40,790 nt of DNA from a virus. The translations under genes and the position numbers were made by a program. Numbering within the stretch: position 1 is the stretch's first letter; every line of letters begins with the position of its first letter. The DNA is taken from positions 1 to 40,790 of the IMG/VR virus record IMGVR_UViG_3300007640_000068; one strand, given 5' to 3'. Under the pieces are notes generated by a model, which had not been told where the DNA came from, ran no database searches, and was given only the letters and a program-made list of their open reading frames with translations. Positions 4,010-38,912 of this stretch are shown piece after piece.

Positions 4010-5140
4010 ATGGAATGGAAAGTAAGGGCGTTGGATAACGATGGTAATCCTATTGAGCCAAATCAAGAAACTGTACAAGAAGAGGTGCAAGAGCCTGTTC
4101 AAGAAAGTGTACAGCAAGAGATAGTAGAAGAAACAACAGAAGAACAAGAGGTTGTAGCGGAAAGCGAGCCATCTGTTGAGGAAAAAATAGAAGATAAAGT
4201 TATAGAAAAGCCTTTCGAGCTTGACGATAATAGTATCTTGAGTTATTTAAAGGATAGACACAACTTAGAAGTTGAGTCTATTGACGTTCTTAAAAATACT
4301 GGAAAAAAACAAGAGCAATCTTTACCAGAAGATATTGTTAAGTTTATGGAGTACAAGAAAGAGACTGGACGTTCTTTCGATGACTATGCTAGACTACAAC
4401 AAGACTGGTCACAAGTCGATGAGACAACACGTTTGCGAGAATATTATAAGCAAACAAAGCCTCATTTAGATATAGATGAAATTGATTATTTAATCAAAGA
4501 AGAGTACAGCTATGATAGTGAACTTGACGATGAAAAAGATATCAAGAAAAAAAAGATTGCATATAAAGAGGAATTATATAAAGCTACTAGCCACTTTGAA
4601 GCGTTAAAGGAGAAATATAAAGCACCACTTGAGTCAAGAGATGCCGATATCCCAGAGCCCTACATGGAAGCTTTTAACTTTTATAATCAATACAGAGAAC
4701 AATCTGAGCAAGAAGCAGAAGCTCAAAAACAGCGCTCTAAAGTCTTTGCTGAAAAAACGAATGTTCTTTTTTCTGATGATTTCAAAGGTTTTGAATTTAA
4801 AGCAGGAGAAAAGAAACAAGTTTATAAGCCATCCGATATAAGTAAAGTTAAAGAAGTACAGTCTGATATCAGCAACTTTTTTAATCAACACTTAGATGAA
4901 AATGGAATAGTTAAAGACATTAATGCGTATCACAAAGCTTTGTACGCTGCACAAAATGCAGACACTCTATTTAATTTTGCTTATGAGCAAGGTAGAGCAG
5001 ATGCAACGGATGGAATTGTTAAAGAAACTAAAAATATAGACATGAACATCCGTGAAAATGTAGTAACAGAAAGCGGAGGTACAAAGTTTAGAGCTGTTTC
5101 AGCAGAAGATGAGTTCTCGTTTAAAATTAAAAAACGATAA
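4010..5140 (+). CDS. Putative capsid scaffolding protein
   Basis: 376 aa, very acidic and charged, with a Gln/Glu/Val-rich N-terminal segment (about residues 19-65, many EE, VQE and QE units) and long predicted helices, including KKKK patches in the middle. It lies between portal and major capsid protein, where podoviruses encode the scaffold. No catalytic motif is visible. Scaffolds are poorly conserved, so the assignment comes from position, size and composition. An assembly-core or head-associated role is the main alternative. Confidence 0.65.
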   Translation: MEWKVRALDNDGNPIEPNQETVQEEVQEPVQESVQQEIVEETTEEQEVVAESEPSVEEKIEDKVIEKPFELDDNSILSYLKDRHNLEVESIDVLKNTGKKQEQSLPEDIVKFMEYKKETGRSFDDYARLQQDWSQVDETTRLREYYKQTKPHLDIDEIDYLIKEEYSYDSELDDEKDIKKKKIAYKEELYKATSHFEALKEKYKAPLESRDADIPEPYMEAFNFYNQYREQSEQEAEAQKQRSKVFAEKTNVLFSDDFKGFEFKAGEKKQVYKPSDISKVKEVQSDISNFFNQHLDENGIVKDINAYHKALYAAQNADTLFNFAYEQGRADATDGIVKETKNIDMNIRENVVTESGGTKFRAVSAEDEFSFKIKKR

Positions 5141-6565: not shown

Positions 6566-7324
6566 ATGGCAAAAAAAAATACAACTACCCAATCTGGTTG
6601 GGAAGTAAAAGATAGAGTTTATATATTATCTGGAAACAGAACTCCAGTAAACTTCATTCTAAGATCGAGACATAGTCTCAACAAACCACTACAATATTTT
6701 GACGGACAGATTACACGTTCACTTAGATTCGCATCGAATCAAACTTCTGTGTTTGAGGATGAGCAATTTGGAGATGTGACTCTTCCAGCGATTATATTTA
6801 AAGACGGAAAACTAATTGTTCCTAGAGAACAGGTTTTGTTGCAACAATTTTTAAGTTTATTTCACCCAGACAGAGGTAAAGTATACGAAGAATTTGACCC
6901 CAATGCTAAGGCAGAATTAGAGATTGCTAGTGAAGAGGAGAAGCTTGATGCTCAAAATTTAGTTAGAGAAATGGATATTGAAGATTTAGAGGCTATAGCA
7001 CGTGTTGCTTTAGGGTCTGGGGTTTCAAACATGAGCTCTAAAGAAATGAAAAGAGACATGCTTATTTATGCTAGAAACAATCCAAAAGAGGTAACGGATT
7101 TAGCTCAAGATGAGAATATTAAATTACGTAATCTAGCTGTTCGTGCAGTTGAAATGGGAGTGCTCTTTATTAAAGACGACAATAGAACTGTATGCTGGAA
7201 CAATAAAACAAAAGACAAAATTGTAACAGTTCCTTACGGTGAAAATGTATATTCAGCTCTTGCTGGGTTCTTTAAAACAGATGACGGACTAGACATTTTA
7301 CAAGGCATCACCAATAAAATGTAG
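6566..7324 (+). CDS. Conserved virion-module protein, possible capsid-associated protein
   Basis: 252 aa, placed between the capsid terminator and the connector genes. The N-terminal half reads like a beta-rich domain (residues 12-95, with repeated short hydrophobic strands). The middle is helical and acidic (about 110-195, with LDAQNLVREMDIEDLEAI), and the end is again mixed. No signal peptide or membrane segment. I recall similar proteins just after the capsid gene in crAss-like phages, but their function is unknown to me. A capsid-auxiliary or head-completion role is inference from position only. It ends in two consecutive hairpins. Confidence 0.75.
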   Translation: MAKKNTTTQSGWEVKDRVYILSGNRTPVNFILRSRHSLNKPLQYFDGQITRSLRFASNQTSVFEDEQFGDVTLPAIIFKDGKLIVPREQVLLQQFLSLFHPDRGKVYEEFDPNAKAELEIASEEEKLDAQNLVREMDIEDLEAIARVALGSGVSNMSSKEMKRDMLIYARNNPKEVTDLAQDENIKLRNLAVRAVEMGVLFIKDDNRTVCWNNKTKDKIVTVPYGENVYSALAGFFKTDDGLDILQGITNKM

Positions 7325-12773: not shown

Positions 12774-13679
12774 ATGAAATACATATGTGCTCAGCCAGCA
12801 ATCCAATACTTTGGATGGCAAATAGATGCTCTACTGTATAGTTTCAAAAATGTTGGTGTAAATCTAGAAGATGTACATGTCATATGCGCTATACATGGTG
12901 AGATAGATCCATACTTTGACACATTGATGAAAAAGTATACAGGCGTATTGTTTTCGTTTTATGAGGATACAAGAGAATACAGAGACTATATACCATCAAT
13001 AAAACAGCATCTTTTATACAAACACTATTCGGCATTCCCAGAAATGGAAAATGAAACAATATTTTTAGTTGATGCTGATATATGTTTAACTAGACCAATT
13101 GATTTTTCTGGATTACTAGATGATAATGTGTGGTATGTTAGTGATACTGTCAGTTATCTAGGATATGATTACATTGAATCTAAAGGCAGGGACATAATGG
13201 ATGCCATGTTTAAGTATGGTGGCATATCAGAAGATATAGTAAAATCAATGAACAATGCAGCTGGAGGAGCACAATATTTATACAAAAACGTAAAGAAAGA
13301 GTTCTGGAATGAAGTTGTTGATGTTTCTCACGAGATATATAAAAACGTTTCTGTGATAAGCGAAGAGAAAAAACAAAAAGACGATGATTATTTCCCTATT
13401 CAAATATGGACTGCAGAGATGTGGGCTATGCTTTGGGTTGCTTGGAAAAAAGGAATAATAACTTCTGTTCATAAAAATTTAGACTTTTGCTGGGCAACAG
13501 ATCCTATAGAAAAGTGGCATAAAACAAGTATATTTCATAACGCTGGAGTTACAAATGCGGAATCTGGTATGTTTTTTAAAGGTAAATACATAGATGATTT
13601 TCCTGATTTAAATTTAGAAATATCAAAAGACAAGTGTTCTTATAGATATTATGGAGTATTACAGCAGGCTCTTGTGTAA
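12774..13679 (+). CDS. Putative GT-A-fold glycosyltransferase
   Basis: 301 aa. A DxD metal/nucleotide-sugar motif occurs in a hydrophobic setting (FLVDADICL, D100 and D102). The N-terminal YFGWQIDALLYSF and later GGAQYLYKN and IFHNAG segments recall peptidyl-Ser/hydroxyproline glycosyltransferase-like proteins; that finer placement is tentative. No signal peptide, so it would act in the cytoplasm of the infected cell. It lies between two genes coding for Ser/Thr-rich virion repeats, which suggests O-glycosylation of those linkers. It also sits inside what looks like a disrupted tail gene. Sugar and acceptor cannot be told from sequence. Confidence 0.72.
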   Translation: MKYICAQPAIQYFGWQIDALLYSFKNVGVNLEDVHVICAIHGEIDPYFDTLMKKYTGVLFSFYEDTREYRDYIPSIKQHLLYKHYSAFPEMENETIFLVDADICLTRPIDFSGLLDDNVWYVSDTVSYLGYDYIESKGRDIMDAMFKYGGISEDIVKSMNNAAGGAQYLYKNVKKEFWNEVVDVSHEIYKNVSVISEEKKQKDDDYFPIQIWTAEMWAMLWVAWKKGIITSVHKNLDFCWATDPIEKWHKTSIFHNAGVTNAESGMFFKGKYIDDFPDLNLEISKDKCSYRYYGVLQQALV

Positions 13680-34085: not shown

Positions 34086-34104
34086 AATAATTAAATTTAA
34101 TTTT

Positions 34105-34130
34105 GCCTACTCTGTTCGCAGATTTTCGGC
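34105..34130 (-). ncRNA. Leader hairpin with CGAA loop
   Basis: Minus strand: GCC/GGC outer stem, internal loop GAAAAU/AGUA, CUG/CAG inner stem, CGAA loop. The right half of this element (CCTACnCTGTTCGCAG on the plus strand) recurs at 37934-37949. Lies about 20-45 nt before the ATG at 34085. Confidence 0.45.
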
Positions 34131-34147
34131 TTCCTCTGTTTTTTTTG

Positions 34148-35887: not shown

Positions 35888-35930
35888 TTAAGATTAATAT
35901 AAGACGTTAGGAGGCTCATAGGAGCCCCCT
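35888..35930 (-). promoter_or_regulatory. Hammerhead target site A with upstream hairpin
   Basis: Minus strand: hairpin 35909-35930 (GGCTC/GAGCC stem extended past one mismatch), then AACGTC/TTATATTAATCTTAAA, then the ATG at 35876. The 17-nt core (35891-35907) is identical to the cleavage site of the ribozyme at 37833-37925 and can pair with its arms. Between ArdC-like and DpnD-like genes. Confidence 0.7.
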
Positions 35931-35940
35931 GTTTGATTAT

Positions 35941-36879
35941 CTACCCTTGGATGTACTTAACTACTTTGGTAGCTTGTTGCATCGCAAATAGGCATGCTTT
36001 TGGCTTATCCTCCAGCTCCTTGCACCATCCATTTATATAAGCTTGGCTGTTGCTCACTGATTCCATAGGATTGAGTCCTAGCATTCCAGTGATATACATT
36101 GCACTGATTTCAGCAACCAGCTCCTCCTGTGCATAGGTCTCATCTCCCCACATAGACACCTCAGTTAGTGTCTTTCTGTTTAGCCTTGACTCGTGTCCAG
36201 TTGAGTGAGCCAGCTCATGGAACAGCACCTTGTAGTAGCTGTCAGAGTCGCAGAAGGTCTCTGGCTTTGGCATCTGTACTCTGTCCGCAACCGTGTGGTA
36301 GTATGCTCTATCTCCACCATGATTAAGTTTTAGCTTTCCGTCTCTAGATATATAGCTTGACGTTAGCTGTTCAGCAACCTCGATTGGTTCATGTACTATC
36401 TTCTCAGTCTTAATGTTTATAGGCTCAATACCTTCGCACTGCGCTACGTTGAATACATTGTAGTATTTCCATGTGTACGTTGGACGGTATCTGTTGACCA
36501 GCTTACCAGAGTCCGTTGTCATTTTATCTCTGAGGTTGACGGTCTTGATTTCTTTGTCTGTTAGAAACTTTCCAGTCTTCATATCTTGGTATCCAATCTT
36601 GCAGAAGTACACTGGTGTTGAGTTGCTACCCTTCTTGACCGTTCCATCAAGACTAACACACTGCTTGTAGGTCAACCACTGGTTGTACTCGTAGCCTTTG
36701 TCTAGCATCACAGCGTTAAGCATGAAGATGTTAAAGCCGTTGTAGTATGTCTTAGTTGACAAATTCATTGGTTGATTCTCAGAACCAGCCTTCCAAGGCT
36801 TGAACCAGTTGAATCCATTCTTCTTCAGTCCCTCTATGACCGCTTCATTTACTTTTTTGAAAATTACATCTTGTGACAT
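35941..36879 (-). CDS. ArdC-like anti-restriction protein / metallopeptidase
   Basis: 312 aa. N-terminal ArdC-type single-strand DNA-binding domain (about 1-130, KPWKAGSENQP and YYNGFNIFML), C-terminal zincin-like domain with FHELAHSTGHESR (HExxH around residues 220-224) and EELVAEISAMY. Proteins of this build protect incoming DNA from restriction and occur on plasmids and phages. G/C content is higher than in the replication genes, suggesting later acquisition. Transcribed leftward as a single gene between two ribozyme target sites, so it may be released as a monocistronic mRNA. Confidence 0.85.
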   Translation of the reverse strand: MSQDVIFKKVNEAVIEGLKKNGFNWFKPWKAGSENQPMNLSTKTYYNGFNIFMLNAVMLDKGYEYNQWLTYKQCVSLDGTVKKGSNSTPVYFCKIGYQDMKTGKFLTDKEIKTVNLRDKMTTDSGKLVNRYRPTYTWKYYNVFNVAQCEGIEPINIKTEKIVHEPIEVAEQLTSSYISRDGKLKLNHGGDRAYYHTVADRVQMPKPETFCDSDSYYKVLFHELAHSTGHESRLNRKTLTEVSMWGDETYAQEELVAEISAMYITGMLGLNPMESVSNSQAYINGWCKELEDKPKACLFAMQQATKVVKYIQG

Positions 36880-36889
36880 TGTTTGTTTG

Positions 36890-36928
36890 TTTAGATTAAT
36901 ATAAGACGTTGGGCAGAGTGAACTGCCC
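36890..36928 (-). promoter_or_regulatory. Hammerhead target site B with upstream hairpin
   Basis: Minus strand: perfect 6-bp hairpin GGGCAG/CTGCCC (36911-36928), then AACGTC/TTATATTAATCT (core 36893-36909) and the leader of the ArdC-like gene. One T is missing in the distal arm compared with site A. The hairpin begins 7 nt after the stop of the upstream gene and has no T tract in this direction. Confidence 0.7.
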
Positions 36929-36935
36929 TTTTTAT

Positions 36936-37133
36936 TTAAAAACCATCTCCACCGTAAGCCATATAATGGTCAATTTCTTGTAGTTTGTCCATTATCTTTT
37001 CAATTTCAGTTAATTTTTGTGGCTCTTTTACTGTTATGTAATCTCTAAGATTTCTCATGCTAAACCAAGCCTCTGCATAGATACGGTCATAGGTTTTTTC
37101 ATCTTCAGTGTAGCTTTGTGTGTTCTGTGACAT
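36936..37133 (-). CDS. Small hypothetical protein
   Basis: 65 aa, acidic and helical (TYDRIYAEAWFSMRNLRDYI, LTEIEKIMDKLQEID), no known motif. Lies alone between target sites B and C. Confidence 0.65.
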   Translation of the reverse strand: MSQNTQSYTEDEKTYDRIYAEAWFSMRNLRDYITVKEPQKLTEIEKIMDKLQEIDHYMAYGGDGF

Positions 37134-37144
37134 AATAGTTTATT

Positions 37145-37185
37145 TTAAGATTAATATAAGACGTTAGGGGAACCGTAGCTCCCCT
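37145..37185 (-). promoter_or_regulatory. Hammerhead target site C with upstream hairpin
   Basis: Minus strand: 6-bp hairpin AGGGGA/TCCCCT (37166-37185), then AACGTC/TTATATTAATCTTAAA (core 37148-37164) and the ATG at 37133. Hairpin starts 4 nt after the upstream stop codon. Confidence 0.7.
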
Positions 37186-37189
37186 TGGA

Positions 37190-37408
37190 CTAGAAGTAAA
37201 ACTCTGTTCCACCAAACTCATTCTCGAACAGTTCATCGAACAGCGCTTGTATTTTTTCCTCGGTATCAAGGGTATCAATTTGCTCTCCGCCTTGGAACAC
37301 CTTAGTTCCTTTGACATATACGGTTCCTTCGTAGTTCCATACTGAATACACCTCTGCTCCGTTTAGGCATTTAAGGTTTTCTTTCGCTTTGCTTGATAAA
37401 GTTTTCAT
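37190..37408 (-). CDS. Small hypothetical protein
   Basis: 72 aa. Beta-rich centre (AEVYSVWNYEGTVYVKGTKV) and an acidic Phe-rich end. No family recognised. Preceded by degenerate target site D and followed by site C. Confidence 0.65.
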   Translation of the reverse strand: MKTLSSKAKENLKCLNGAEVYSVWNYEGTVYVKGTKVFQGGEQIDTLDTEEKIQALFDELFENEFGGTEFYF

Positions 37409-37417
37409 TGTGTTTTG

Positions 37418-37440
37418 TTTAGATTAATATGAGATTACGT
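37418..37440 (-). promoter_or_regulatory. Degenerate hammerhead target site D
   Basis: ACGTAATCTCATATTAATCT on the minus strand: 3-nt insertion and changed triplet compared with the other copies, no hairpin. It overlaps the last codons of the upstream gene, whose stop TAA uses the ATATTAATC part. Probably cleaved poorly or not at all. Confidence 0.5.
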
Positions 37441-37693
37441 GGATGAGTGAATCATCTATTTTTACTAATATGCCTTCTAGCTGTTCAAACATCTCTATTG
37501 GTAGATATAGGGCGGCATATTGATGGATTTTATCATAGTAATAACCATCAAACAAACCGTATAACATGTTTGTCAGTTCAGCTGTATCGTCTTCAGTACG
37601 TACAAAGCTTTTAACTTTACTGATACAGTCTAAAATGAATGATGTGTCACTCATTTCAAATACTTCGTGTCTGTTGAATCTTTTGTAGTTCAT
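37424..37693 (-). CDS. Small hypothetical protein
   Basis: 89 aa, helical, with aromatic centre (YGLFDGYYYDKIHQYAALYL) and acidic patches. No recognised motif. The C-terminal codons are embedded in target site D, an arrangement that may explain the drift of that site. Preceded by target site E. Confidence 0.65.
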   Translation of the reverse strand: MNYKRFNRHEVFEMSDTSFILDCISKVKSFVRTEDDTAELTNMLYGLFDGYYYDKIHQYAALYLPIEMFEQLEGILVKIDDSLIHVISY

Positions 37694-37705
37694 TTTAATT
37701 GATAT

Positions 37706-37744
37706 TTAAGATTAATATAAGACGTTGGGAAGATTTAACTTCCC
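37706..37744 (-). promoter_or_regulatory. Hammerhead target site E with upstream hairpin
   Basis: Minus strand: perfect 6-bp hairpin GGGAAG/CTTCCC (37727-37744), then AACGTC/TTATATTAATCTTAAA (core 37709-37725). The hairpin loop contains the stop codon of the 28-aa ORF upstream. Confidence 0.7.
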
Positions 37745-37821
37745 TCACAACACTCACAAATACTAGAGAATTCATACTCTATGGTTGTCATTTCTGTGTC
37801 GCAAATTTCACAATAATTCAT
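37735..37821 (-). CDS. 28-aa zinc-knuckle micro-protein
   Basis: Read by eye: MNYCEIC, DTEMTTIEYEFSS, ICECCEGS. Two Cys pairs (C4/C7 and C22/C24-C25) can form one zinc site. It has the same leader type as its neighbours (AATCTTAAAAATAAACTACAATG) right after the ribozyme's cleavage site, so it would be the first ORF on the 3' cleavage product. Very short, so translation is uncertain. Confidence 0.5.
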   Translation of the reverse strand: MNYCEICDTEMTTIEYEFSSICECCEGS

Positions 37822-37832
37822 TGTAGTTTATT

Positions 37833-37925
37833 TTTAAGATTAATATAAGACGTGGACGGCATTGCTACCGTCCGTTTTAACGTTTCGTCCTTGTTTGGAC
37901 TCATCAGTTATATGTAAATCTTAAA
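37833..37925 (-). ncRNA. Type I hammerhead ribozyme
   Basis: Read 5'-3' on the minus strand. Stem I 5' strand UUUAAGAUU-UAC-AUAUAA (37925-37908), core CUGAUGA (37907-37901), stem II GUCC/GGAC with loop AAACAA (37900-37887), core GAAA (37886-37883), stem III ACGU/ACGU (37883-37880 with 37853-37850) enclosing a perfect GGACGG/CCGUCC hairpin (37873-37854), cleavage triplet GUC ending at 37849, stem I 3' strand UUAUAU-U-AAUCUUAAA (37848-37833). All invariant hammerhead nucleotides are present, including the G-C closing pair of stem II. Predicted cut between 37849 and 37848. The internal loop in stem I and loop II could make the usual tertiary contact. Confidence 0.93.
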
Positions 37926-38122
37926 CGTTGTTTCCTACGCTGTTCGCAGTTGTCCCTCGGGCATACCTGTTACTCTTCAACACTAACCCTGTCCCTATCG
38001 GGGAGGTCGTCTCCGTCATCCAGCTATCTTGCTGTCCTGTTCGGGAGAGTTTCAGAAGAGTGTCTCTCACCACCCAGTCGAAGTAATCTACATGTGCTAG
38101 CTACACGTCCATCGACACCGCT
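37926..38122 (-). ncRNA. Structured G/C-richer RNA upstream of the ribozyme
   Basis: About 200 nt with no credible ORF and clearly higher G/C than its flanks. Minus-strand hairpins in a row: GTCGA/TCGAC enclosing an inner ACGUGU/ACAUGU pairing (38077-38116), GAGAG/CTCTC (38045-38068), CAGC/GCTG (38021-38034), GGAG/CTCC (38002-38014), CCC/GGG (37993-38002, partly alternative), then the CTGCGAACAG element (37934-37949). It ends at the hammerhead, whose cut would set its 3' end. I do not recognise a named RNA family. Confidence 0.55.
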
Positions 38123-38130
38123 ATATTATT

Positions 38131-38912
38131 TTAAATATTCAATATGACAATGAAAAAAATCGATAAAGTGCACATCTTTTTTTGATTTCCCAATGTTTAC
38201 AGTACTTCCCAGAGCATCAAAATCAACCAAAAAAATCGATGAAATGCATAAAAATTCTTGAAAAAAAATTTGGATATGTTATTTATTTTCCCTATCGCGC
38301 ACGCACGCACACACGTGTACACGCACGTAATCTTATTAGCACGAATGCCGATAATAACAAAGTGTTGATTAGCCCTTATAAACACTGGGCTCAAGGCTGT
38401 TTTCTTGTGATGACATATCGATATCTGGTGTTAGGTGTAAAATGCTAAACGTGTTGGTGGTTATTCGGAATCCAGACGCATATAAAACCATAAATCCTTA
38501 TCCATTCCATAGAAATAGCATGGCTTTTTAGCTAATCTGCACCATGGTCAAAGCAAAAACCTAAAAACTTTGGTGACGTTGTCGATTCAAAGTGACGGGG
38601 TGGGTTTAAGGAATCGGTTTTCCCAAAGGGTCGGGTGTCTTGTATTGTATATATAACCCAAAACCTACATACATCTAAAAACGTGTTTAAAAACACAAAG
38701 GTCTAGTGTTTACGGTAGTTTACACGTGGCATAAAAAAGGGACATTTACTGTTTATATATATGTGTACATTTATTTGTCCACTTTTCATGCCATCTGTTG
38801 TATATACAACTGTTAATATTTATTTTAATTAAATACGGTTGTTGATTAGAAATAATTGTGTAATATTGTTGTGTTATTTGTTGTTTATAATTTGTTTTCA
38901 TTAATTGGGAGA
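38131..38912. other. Non-coding region with palindromes and repeats
   Basis: No convincing gene on either strand. Contents: two TCGATAAAGTGCAT-like motifs (38160, 38236); a 34-nt alternating pyrimidine-purine tract (38296-38329); an imperfect inverted repeat GGCAT..GGGACA / TGTCC..ATGCC (about 38731-38795); a perfect 14-nt palindrome GTTGTATATACAAC (38797-38810); and A/T-rich DNA to 38900. Candidate region for origin, early promoters or regulator binding; no DnaA-box cluster was found. Confidence 0.6.
38296..38329. other. Alternating purine-pyrimidine (Z-DNA-prone) tract
   Basis: 34 nt strictly alternate pyrimidine and purine, mostly CG and CA/TG steps, including the palindrome CGTGTACACG (38314-38323). 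Such tracts flip easily to the Z form under negative supercoiling. Confidence 0.8.

Follow-up and report, generated by a model that had tools for sequence, protein, structure and literature searches.

A single hammerhead ribozyme and its candidate substrate-only sites between the early genes of a virus

Introduction

A review of hammerhead ribozymes presents the natural forms as self-cutters and the trans-acting forms as engineered, describes a discontinuous mammalian form, and leaves the role of many phage hammerheads as an open question (PMC6155905). Clusters of complete hammerheads around single phage genes have been reported, and processing of the transcript was proposed for them (Perreault et al. 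2011, PMC3088659). Here we analyze the virus record IMGVR_UViG_3300007640_000068 over its whole length of 40,790 nucleotides (nt); this stretch is termed the window, and all coordinates refer to it unless a locus handle precedes them. Its minus strand carries one complete type I hammerhead ribozyme together with substrate-only sites, which repeat the ribozyme's substrate strand without a core and stand before neighbouring genes.

Like the clusters cited above (PMC3088659), for which gene-length mRNAs were proposed, this arrangement lies between the genes of a phage transcript (compare L066 and L213 below); there each site has its own core, whereas here one core is accompanied by many core-less sites. 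The core, stems I to III and the GUC site are those of type I (Rfam RF00163), but a linker and a hairpin interrupt stem III, and the unit of hairpin and substrate strand appears again at other places. The discontinuous hammerhead of mammalian Clec2 3' untranslated regions (Martick et al. 2008, as described in PMC6155905) likewise separates substrate and enzyme by a long insert, yet it has one enzyme part and one site, not several sites over kilobases. Engineered trans-acting hammerheads also use a two-armed ribozyme strand to cut separate RNAs (PMC6155905); they are man-made, whereas the present system is a natural candidate with natural substrates. RNase P RNA is a natural RNA that cuts many separate RNAs, but it is large, reads shape instead of pairing through two complementary arms, and is unrelated. 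A literature search, in which subscription journals were thinly covered, found no natural hammerhead with substrate-only sites.

The hammerhead ribozyme of the window

The ribozyme was delimited by its Rfam match, fold and sequence, and comprises the following elements. In site sequences and in pairs of positions, a slash marks the predicted cut.

37837..37922, minus strand: complete type I hammerhead ribozyme (RF00163)
37922-37908, minus strand: 5' strand of stem I, AAGAUU-UAC-AUAUAA
37900-37887, minus strand: stem II, GUCC-AAACAA-GGAC, preceded by the core CUGAUGA and followed by GAA
37883-37879, minus strand: 5' strand of stem III, ACGUU, followed by the linker and hairpin and then by the own site, ACGUC/UUAUAUUAAUCU
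37854..37873, minus strand: hairpin GGACGG..CCGUCC between the two stem III strands, adjoining the own site (from folding; minimum free energy, MFE, -14.2)
37837..37853, minus strand: the ribozyme's own cleavage site, predicted cut 37849/37848, with CACGUC giving a stem III of 4 bp

An Rfam scan of the window matched RF00163 at 37913-37843 with 40.6 bits (E 4.7e-07), above the gathering score, and the fold of the ribozyme has a z-score of -4.8, none of the shuffled sequences being as stable. It displays the conserved core CUGANGA...GAAA, the NUH site, the three helices and the open end in stem I of a type I hammerhead (RF00163). Stem I exceeds the Rfam model: AAGAUU-UAC-AUAUAA pairs with UUAUAU-U-AAUCUU, and the distal helix, formed by AAGAUU and AAUCUU across a 3x1 internal loop, extends the complementarity between ribozyme and site. 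The 4-bp stem III is split: it opens into the linker and an independent hairpin, with the substrate strand immediately after. The region upstream of the ribozyme (37920-38140) folds no better than shuffles (z -0.8). No second hammerhead core was detected in the window by the Rfam scan or by motif and arm searches, in agreement with the initial annotation, which had described the repeated sites as lacking a core of their own.

Substrate-only sites in the window

The 17-mer ACGTCTTATATTAATCT occurs exactly at 35891, 36893, 37148 and 37709, where it had been reported before, and again in the own site at 37837; all copies lie on the minus strand. Shuffles predict 0.31 copies at up to three mismatches, and the window holds no further copy at that tolerance. 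From the ribozyme downstream, the sites and one degenerate relative are:

37709..37744, minus strand: substrate-only site E, hairpin GGGAAG..CUUCCC (37744-37727) and AACGUC/UUAUAUUAAUCUU; predicted cut 37721/37720, before an open reading frame (ORF) of 89 amino acids (aa) at 37693-37424; exact 17-mer, hairpin and cofold (free-energy difference, ddG, -7.9)
37421..37456, minus strand: degenerate copy D, TAATCTCATATTAATCT, with a weak hairpin GAUGA..UCAUC, before a 72-aa ORF at 37408-37190
37148..37185, minus strand: substrate-only site C, hairpin AGGGGAG..UUCCCCU (37185-37166) and AACGUC/UUAUAUUAAUCUU; predicted cut 37160/37159, before a 65-aa ORF at 37133-36936; exact 17-mer, hairpin and cofold
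36893..36928, minus strand: substrate-only site B, hairpin GGGCAG..CUGCCC (36928-36911) and AACGUC/UUAUAUUAAUCU; predicted cut 36905/36904, before an ArdC-like anti-restriction gene at 36879-35941; exact 17-mer, hairpin and cofold
35891..35930, minus strand: substrate-only site A, hairpin AGGGGGCUC..GAGCCUCCU (35930-35909) and AACGUC/UUAUAUUAAUCUU; predicted cut 35903/35902, before a 58-aa ORF at 35876-35700; exact 17-mer, hairpin and cofold

Each of the five window sites lies directly 3' of a GC-rich hairpin whose sequence is different every time, and the distance from the predicted cut to the ATG is 25-27 nt in all five, which bears out the earlier description of same-strand copies ahead of start codons. 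What the copies conserve is, over its whole length, complementary to the ribozyme arms. The AACGUC of sites A, B, C and E forms 5 bp with the ribozyme's ACGUU, compared with 4 bp for the CACGUC of the own site, a difference already noted in the initial annotation. Copy D, which had been listed there as a degenerate copy, is indeed a relative of the site, but it does not hold as a functional one. Its distal stem I part is kept and its ACGTC, that is, the stem III and GUC part, is lost; the end of the upstream gene extends into it, and its cofold with the ribozyme has a ddG of -3.8 versus -7.3 to -7.9 for the other sites. For these reasons it was not counted as a site; it is probably decayed, and cleavage there is predicted to be unlikely.

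Two further candidates, at 13619 and 21790 (reverse-complement axis; 6+4 pairing), miss the distal helix and were judged to be chance matches. The 17-mer was found nowhere else in IMG/VR, in a search that possibly left out close relatives of the window. The region also had no BLASTN match among 50,697 phage records.

Terminase and portal genes occupy one end of the window, and the minus-strand operon is of early type, with replication genes and the ArdC anti-restriction gene at 36879-35941 (Pfam ArdcN/MPTase-PolyVal; phrog_7245). Two other features were recorded:

37733..37820, minus strand: first cistron after the ribozyme, a Cys-rich ORF of about 28 aa, MNYCEICDTEMTTIEYEFSSICECCEGS, read from the sequence, with its stop codon inside the site E hairpin
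34104-34139, minus strand: DUF805b RNA motif (RF02914, 50 bits), ahead of a short early ORF

Ribozyme and orphan sites in the F1 lineage

IMG/VR was scanned for hammerheads with a GUCC and GGAC stem II and then for substrate-only (orphan) sites; the survey comprises 325 distinct hammerhead-like motifs in 200 loci. Locus L075 has one hammerhead, whose own site reads hairpin-GGUGUC/UAUAGCAAUAGGAGGCUAU..AUG, and 11 further sites on the same strand with none on the opposite one; 9 of the 11 stand before a Shine-Dalgarno (SD) sequence and an ATG. L178 and L186 were also found by the substrate-only search. A search with the leader pattern of this lineage, F1, added 14 loci, and a final scan four more contigs. 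F1 contains 16 contigs with a ribozyme, exactly one in each, accompanied by as many as 11 substrate-only sites. When 12 F1 contigs were scanned over their whole records, one hammerhead came up in each of the 10 with a match; these records, like the window with its single core, thus depart from the one-core-per-site order of the phage clusters. The apparently ribozyme-less G010, among the 12 scanned, has a run of N exactly at that place (an assembly gap).

In F1 as in the window, the ribozyme opens the operon and all its sites follow downstream on its strand within 5 kb; in the four larger F1 records (L178, G005, G007 and G008) the sites spread over about 2.5 to 5 kb beyond it. Late F1 genes have no cassette. 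Other matches in G005 and G008, away from the operon, lack the hairpin/leader cassette and were rejected.

For the statistics, 79 F1 orphan sites were gathered through the SD leader hairpin downstream of the site, not through the site itself. Positions 16.4-16.1 are GUGU in 79/79, U1.1 is invariant, and position 17 is C in 76, A in two, U in one and G in none, which keeps the NUH rule. Stem I varies between A and G at 1.2 and 1.4, opposite a ribozyme U, and is fixed at the other positions, the fixation of 1.5 and 1.6 being partly built in because the collecting leader stem includes 1.3-1.6. The pattern by which most F1 contigs were retrieved includes GTGTCT and the SD, so that uniformity between contigs is partly a result of selection, whereas the variation over all leaders within a contig is free of this bias. 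Sequence 5' of 16.5 is nearly unconserved (information content at most ~0.3).

On the 3' side of the cut, the F1 leader forms a covarying hairpin that starts at nt 1.2 and has the SD in its loop. Pair 1.4 is A-U in 50 leaders and G-C in 38 and is never broken, and pair 1.2 is A-U in 56, G-C in 24, G-U in six and A-A in two; U1.1 is unpaired in the leader, its partner position being T in 43, C in 27, A in 16 and G in two. The A/G changes of the site are matched by the leader partner, and the F1 sites therefore serve two pairings simultaneously. In the ribozyme, stem II pair 208-219 is G-C in six contigs, A-U in five, C-G in three and U-A in two, with none broken, and the arms and core are fixed except N7. 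Judged by this covariation and fixation, the F1 ribozyme itself is under selection. Cofolding its strand with the UAUAGC and UGUAGC orphan variants gives the hammerhead fold. The own site of L273 has three stem III pairs versus four for the orphan sites; with the additional pair of the window orphans, the stem III arm looks as if it were kept for the orphan sites.

The main F1 clade has a conserved 5' domain of ~110-150 nt directly before the ribozyme (L272:819-990 and other contigs). Its helices covary (columns 57-61/77-81 and 102-106/121-126 of alignment A2), it has no Rfam match, and it is probably a new structured RNA domain; no match to it was found upstream of the window ribozyme. Near the F1 operon end, L272:5674-5854 matches the manA RNA model (RF01745) with 38.9 bits, below the gathering score. 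Operon ends (L190:14029, L272:5950, L275:5413, L208:2684) carry a terminator-like hairpin and T-run followed by an extra SD-less site, GTGTC or GTGTA/TRTAGCAAATA..TTGTTATAAT, which adjoins a promoter-like TATAAT. The terminase DNA of L178 is 68% identical to that of Pelagibacter phages; no hammerhead was found in the compared stretches of HTVC027P (a Pelagibacter phage), 023Pt_psg01 and DSL-LC04, which have terminase DNA like that of L178.

Comparison across lineages

The F3 lineage is represented by L186, with one hammerhead and three substrate-only sites. The ribozyme arms are GCUAUA and ACAC in F1, AUAUAA and ACGU in the window, and GUAAUA and ACAC in L186, and the matrix of arms by genomes is close to block diagonal over the three lineages. 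F1 arms find 7-12 sites per F1 genome and none on the opposite strand. Window arms find seven in the window, of which five are real and two lie in coding DNA without the distal helix, and none on the same strand elsewhere; F3 arms find four sites, in L186 only. As far as sequence can tell, arms and sites differ between lineages and match within each. The covariation that the initial annotation had named as a check is thus present across these lineages of unrelated phages, and independent drift was not seen. Hairpins before orphan sites have mean MFE values of -14.6 in F1, -12.7 in the window and -15.9 in F3, against backgrounds of -3.4, -2.9 and -3.1.

Multiple orphan sites with hairpin and ATG were left in three lineages after chance matches and complete-hammerhead arrays had been removed; candidates in L055, L071, L102, L162 and L171 were chance matches or parts of ordinary hammerheads. 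A bacterial genome scan gave 10 matches, the sole array among these being L213, of complete hammerheads. L213:540-4563 holds nine complete hammerheads and L066:1892-6179 five, each shortly before a gene start. At L256:6931, within a complete-hammerhead array, one site still has the stem III hairpin and the leader but apparently no longer a core, a possible evolutionary intermediate towards the form with one core and many sites. Loci L028, L037, L056, L072, L088 and L106 have type III-like hammerheads before genes, in which a hairpin, in many cases GTGTCTTCAAAGACAC, immediately precedes the cleavage site, repeating the order of hairpin, cut and leader.

No hammerhead was found in the ArdC relatives L125, L126 and L127. 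L126 has intercistronic hairpins ATCATCTTGCCCCAT..ATGGGGTT(A/G)AGGTGGT at 4942-5014, 6915-6991 and 7212-7282, and L125 has hairpins AGAGGGGGGAGTATTTCCC.. at 6933-6967 and 7234-7270, all without a ribozyme; these cassettes are possibly another RNA processing signal. Because they are ribozyme-free, hairpins between early genes appear to be a wider habit of such phages, and the ribozyme system may have been built on this pre-existing habit.

Proposed mechanism

The initial annotation had proposed that a single core cuts several sites. We consider it very probable that many intercistronic sites of the transcript are cut by a single catalytic RNA at its 5' end, since orphan sites match the resident ribozyme in three lineages. 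The proposal builds on the observed motif, hairpins and complementarity, on the three-lineage matching of arms and sites, and on the finding that sites occur only in the part of the transcript that follows the ribozyme. The predicted course, including cleavage, its trans or cis mode and its effect on mRNA stability or translation, would be as follows.

The minus-strand early operon would open with the hammerhead, whose two arms would recognise a cassette of hairpin and (A)ACGUC/UUAUAUUAAUCU placed ahead of at least five genes. The RNA would fold and cut its own site, and the same core would cut the other cassettes of the polycistronic transcript, whether through long-range folding while still attached or, after the own cut, in trans. 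This own cut would leave a 5' RNA that retains the core and both arms and is closed at its 3' end by a hairpin. Upstream messages would end with a stable 3' hairpin and a few nt bearing a 2',3'-cyclic phosphate, and downstream messages would start with a 5'-OH leader of ~25 nt, which in F1 would fold into the hairpin with the SD exposed in its loop. The outcome would be comparable to what RNase III or RNase E does to the early mRNAs of phages, except that a phage RNA would do it. RNase III processes the early mRNA of T7, a phage early polycistronic RNA cut between genes beside hairpins; there the enzyme is a host protein, here it would be a phage ribozyme.

As the own-site cut would free the core, trans cutting is likely and would be what one expects of a released core. 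We lean slightly towards a natural trans-acting, multiple-turnover hammerhead, which would free itself by the cut on its own 3' side and then act as the dedicated endonuclease of a regulon comprising as many as eleven sites between cistrons.

Several observations weigh against cutting of many sites by one core. RNAcofold folds the window core region otherwise than as a hammerhead, nearest-neighbour energies ignoring tertiary contacts, and the cofold with the F1 UAUGGC variant departs from the canonical fold. At about -8 kcal/mol the arm ddG is modest, and binding in trans may suffer where RNA is scarce. Site D is decayed, 7/72 F1 orphan sites have no strong upstream hairpin, and some F1 sites have no gene directly behind. 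The L186 ribozyme, with 31.7 bits to RAGATH-1-hammerhead, stays below the Rfam gathering score. As the window lineage and L186 comprise one genome each, the dense statistics come from F1.

Alternative explanations

A strictly cis mode, in which the downstream sites are cut by long-range folding and never in trans, is a sub-case of the proposed mechanism. It accords with the placement of all real sites, which lie no more than 5 kb downstream of the ribozyme on the predicted transcript that carries it, and on no other operon. The own-site cut would detach the core, however, ribosomes between the genes would hinder folding over kilobases, and the orphan sites pair as well as the own site or better; we regard the strictly cis mode as possible but rather unlikely.

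The initial annotation had also offered a promoter or a duplicated leader as the alternative, and both fit poorly with the upstream elements, the NUH rule and the unrelated hairpins. In the second form, a translation leader or SD-hairpin cassette would have spread by duplication, its likeness to a substrate being inherited and unused. The F1 leaders do form genuine hairpins that present the SD in the loop and never break pair 1.4, and the ArdC relatives L125 and L126 carry hairpin cassettes without a ribozyme. The leader pairing omits 16.4-16.1, 17 and U1.1, yet these are invariant or NUH-limited in the 79 sites; moreover, the hairpins preceding the sites have no sequence in common and the late F1 genes have no cassette, which makes duplication alone improbable.

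That the repeats are promoters or operators, one copy of which the hammerhead merely contains, would agree with repeated, AT-rich, same-strand copies directly before start codons. Upstream of the motif, however, there are just unrelated hairpins and no shared -35-like element, and sigma-70-like sites on the minus strand were absent at the copies, their count equalling that of shuffles in a search of sigma-70-like promoters that did not cover Bacteroidota-type and other promoters. Because the F1 leader hairpin covaries from nt 1.2, the RNA must start at or before the cut, and a promoter leaves both the NUH rule and the variation that follows the ribozyme arms unexplained. We consider this reading very improbable.

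Still less credit is given to a ribozyme that cuts only itself and releases a 5' RNA acting as an antisense regulator, pairing with the leaders without cutting: the base-pairing would be identical, and the F1 ribozyme covers the SD (its CUCC pairs with it), but antisense needs no GUH, stem III strand or cut-adjacent hairpin, and all three are kept. Intrinsic terminators fit poorly, as the hairpins are followed by (A)ACGUC or GUGUC and no U-run, few T occur in the 8 nt before most F1 sites, and the window hairpins were not called as terminators on the minus strand.

Significance

If the trans-acting reading is true, this would be, to our knowledge, the first small nucleolytic ribozyme with natural trans substrates, occurring in three lineages with different recognition arms. 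With one core serving many dedicated sites, a hammerhead would act in nature as an enzyme on other parts of the mRNA, and the natural combinations of arms and linker would offer designs for trans-cleaving ribozymes. Phage hammerheads would gain a concrete job, the production of single-gene messages with set 5' and 3' ends, which is testable through the predicted 5'-OH ends at named nucleotides.

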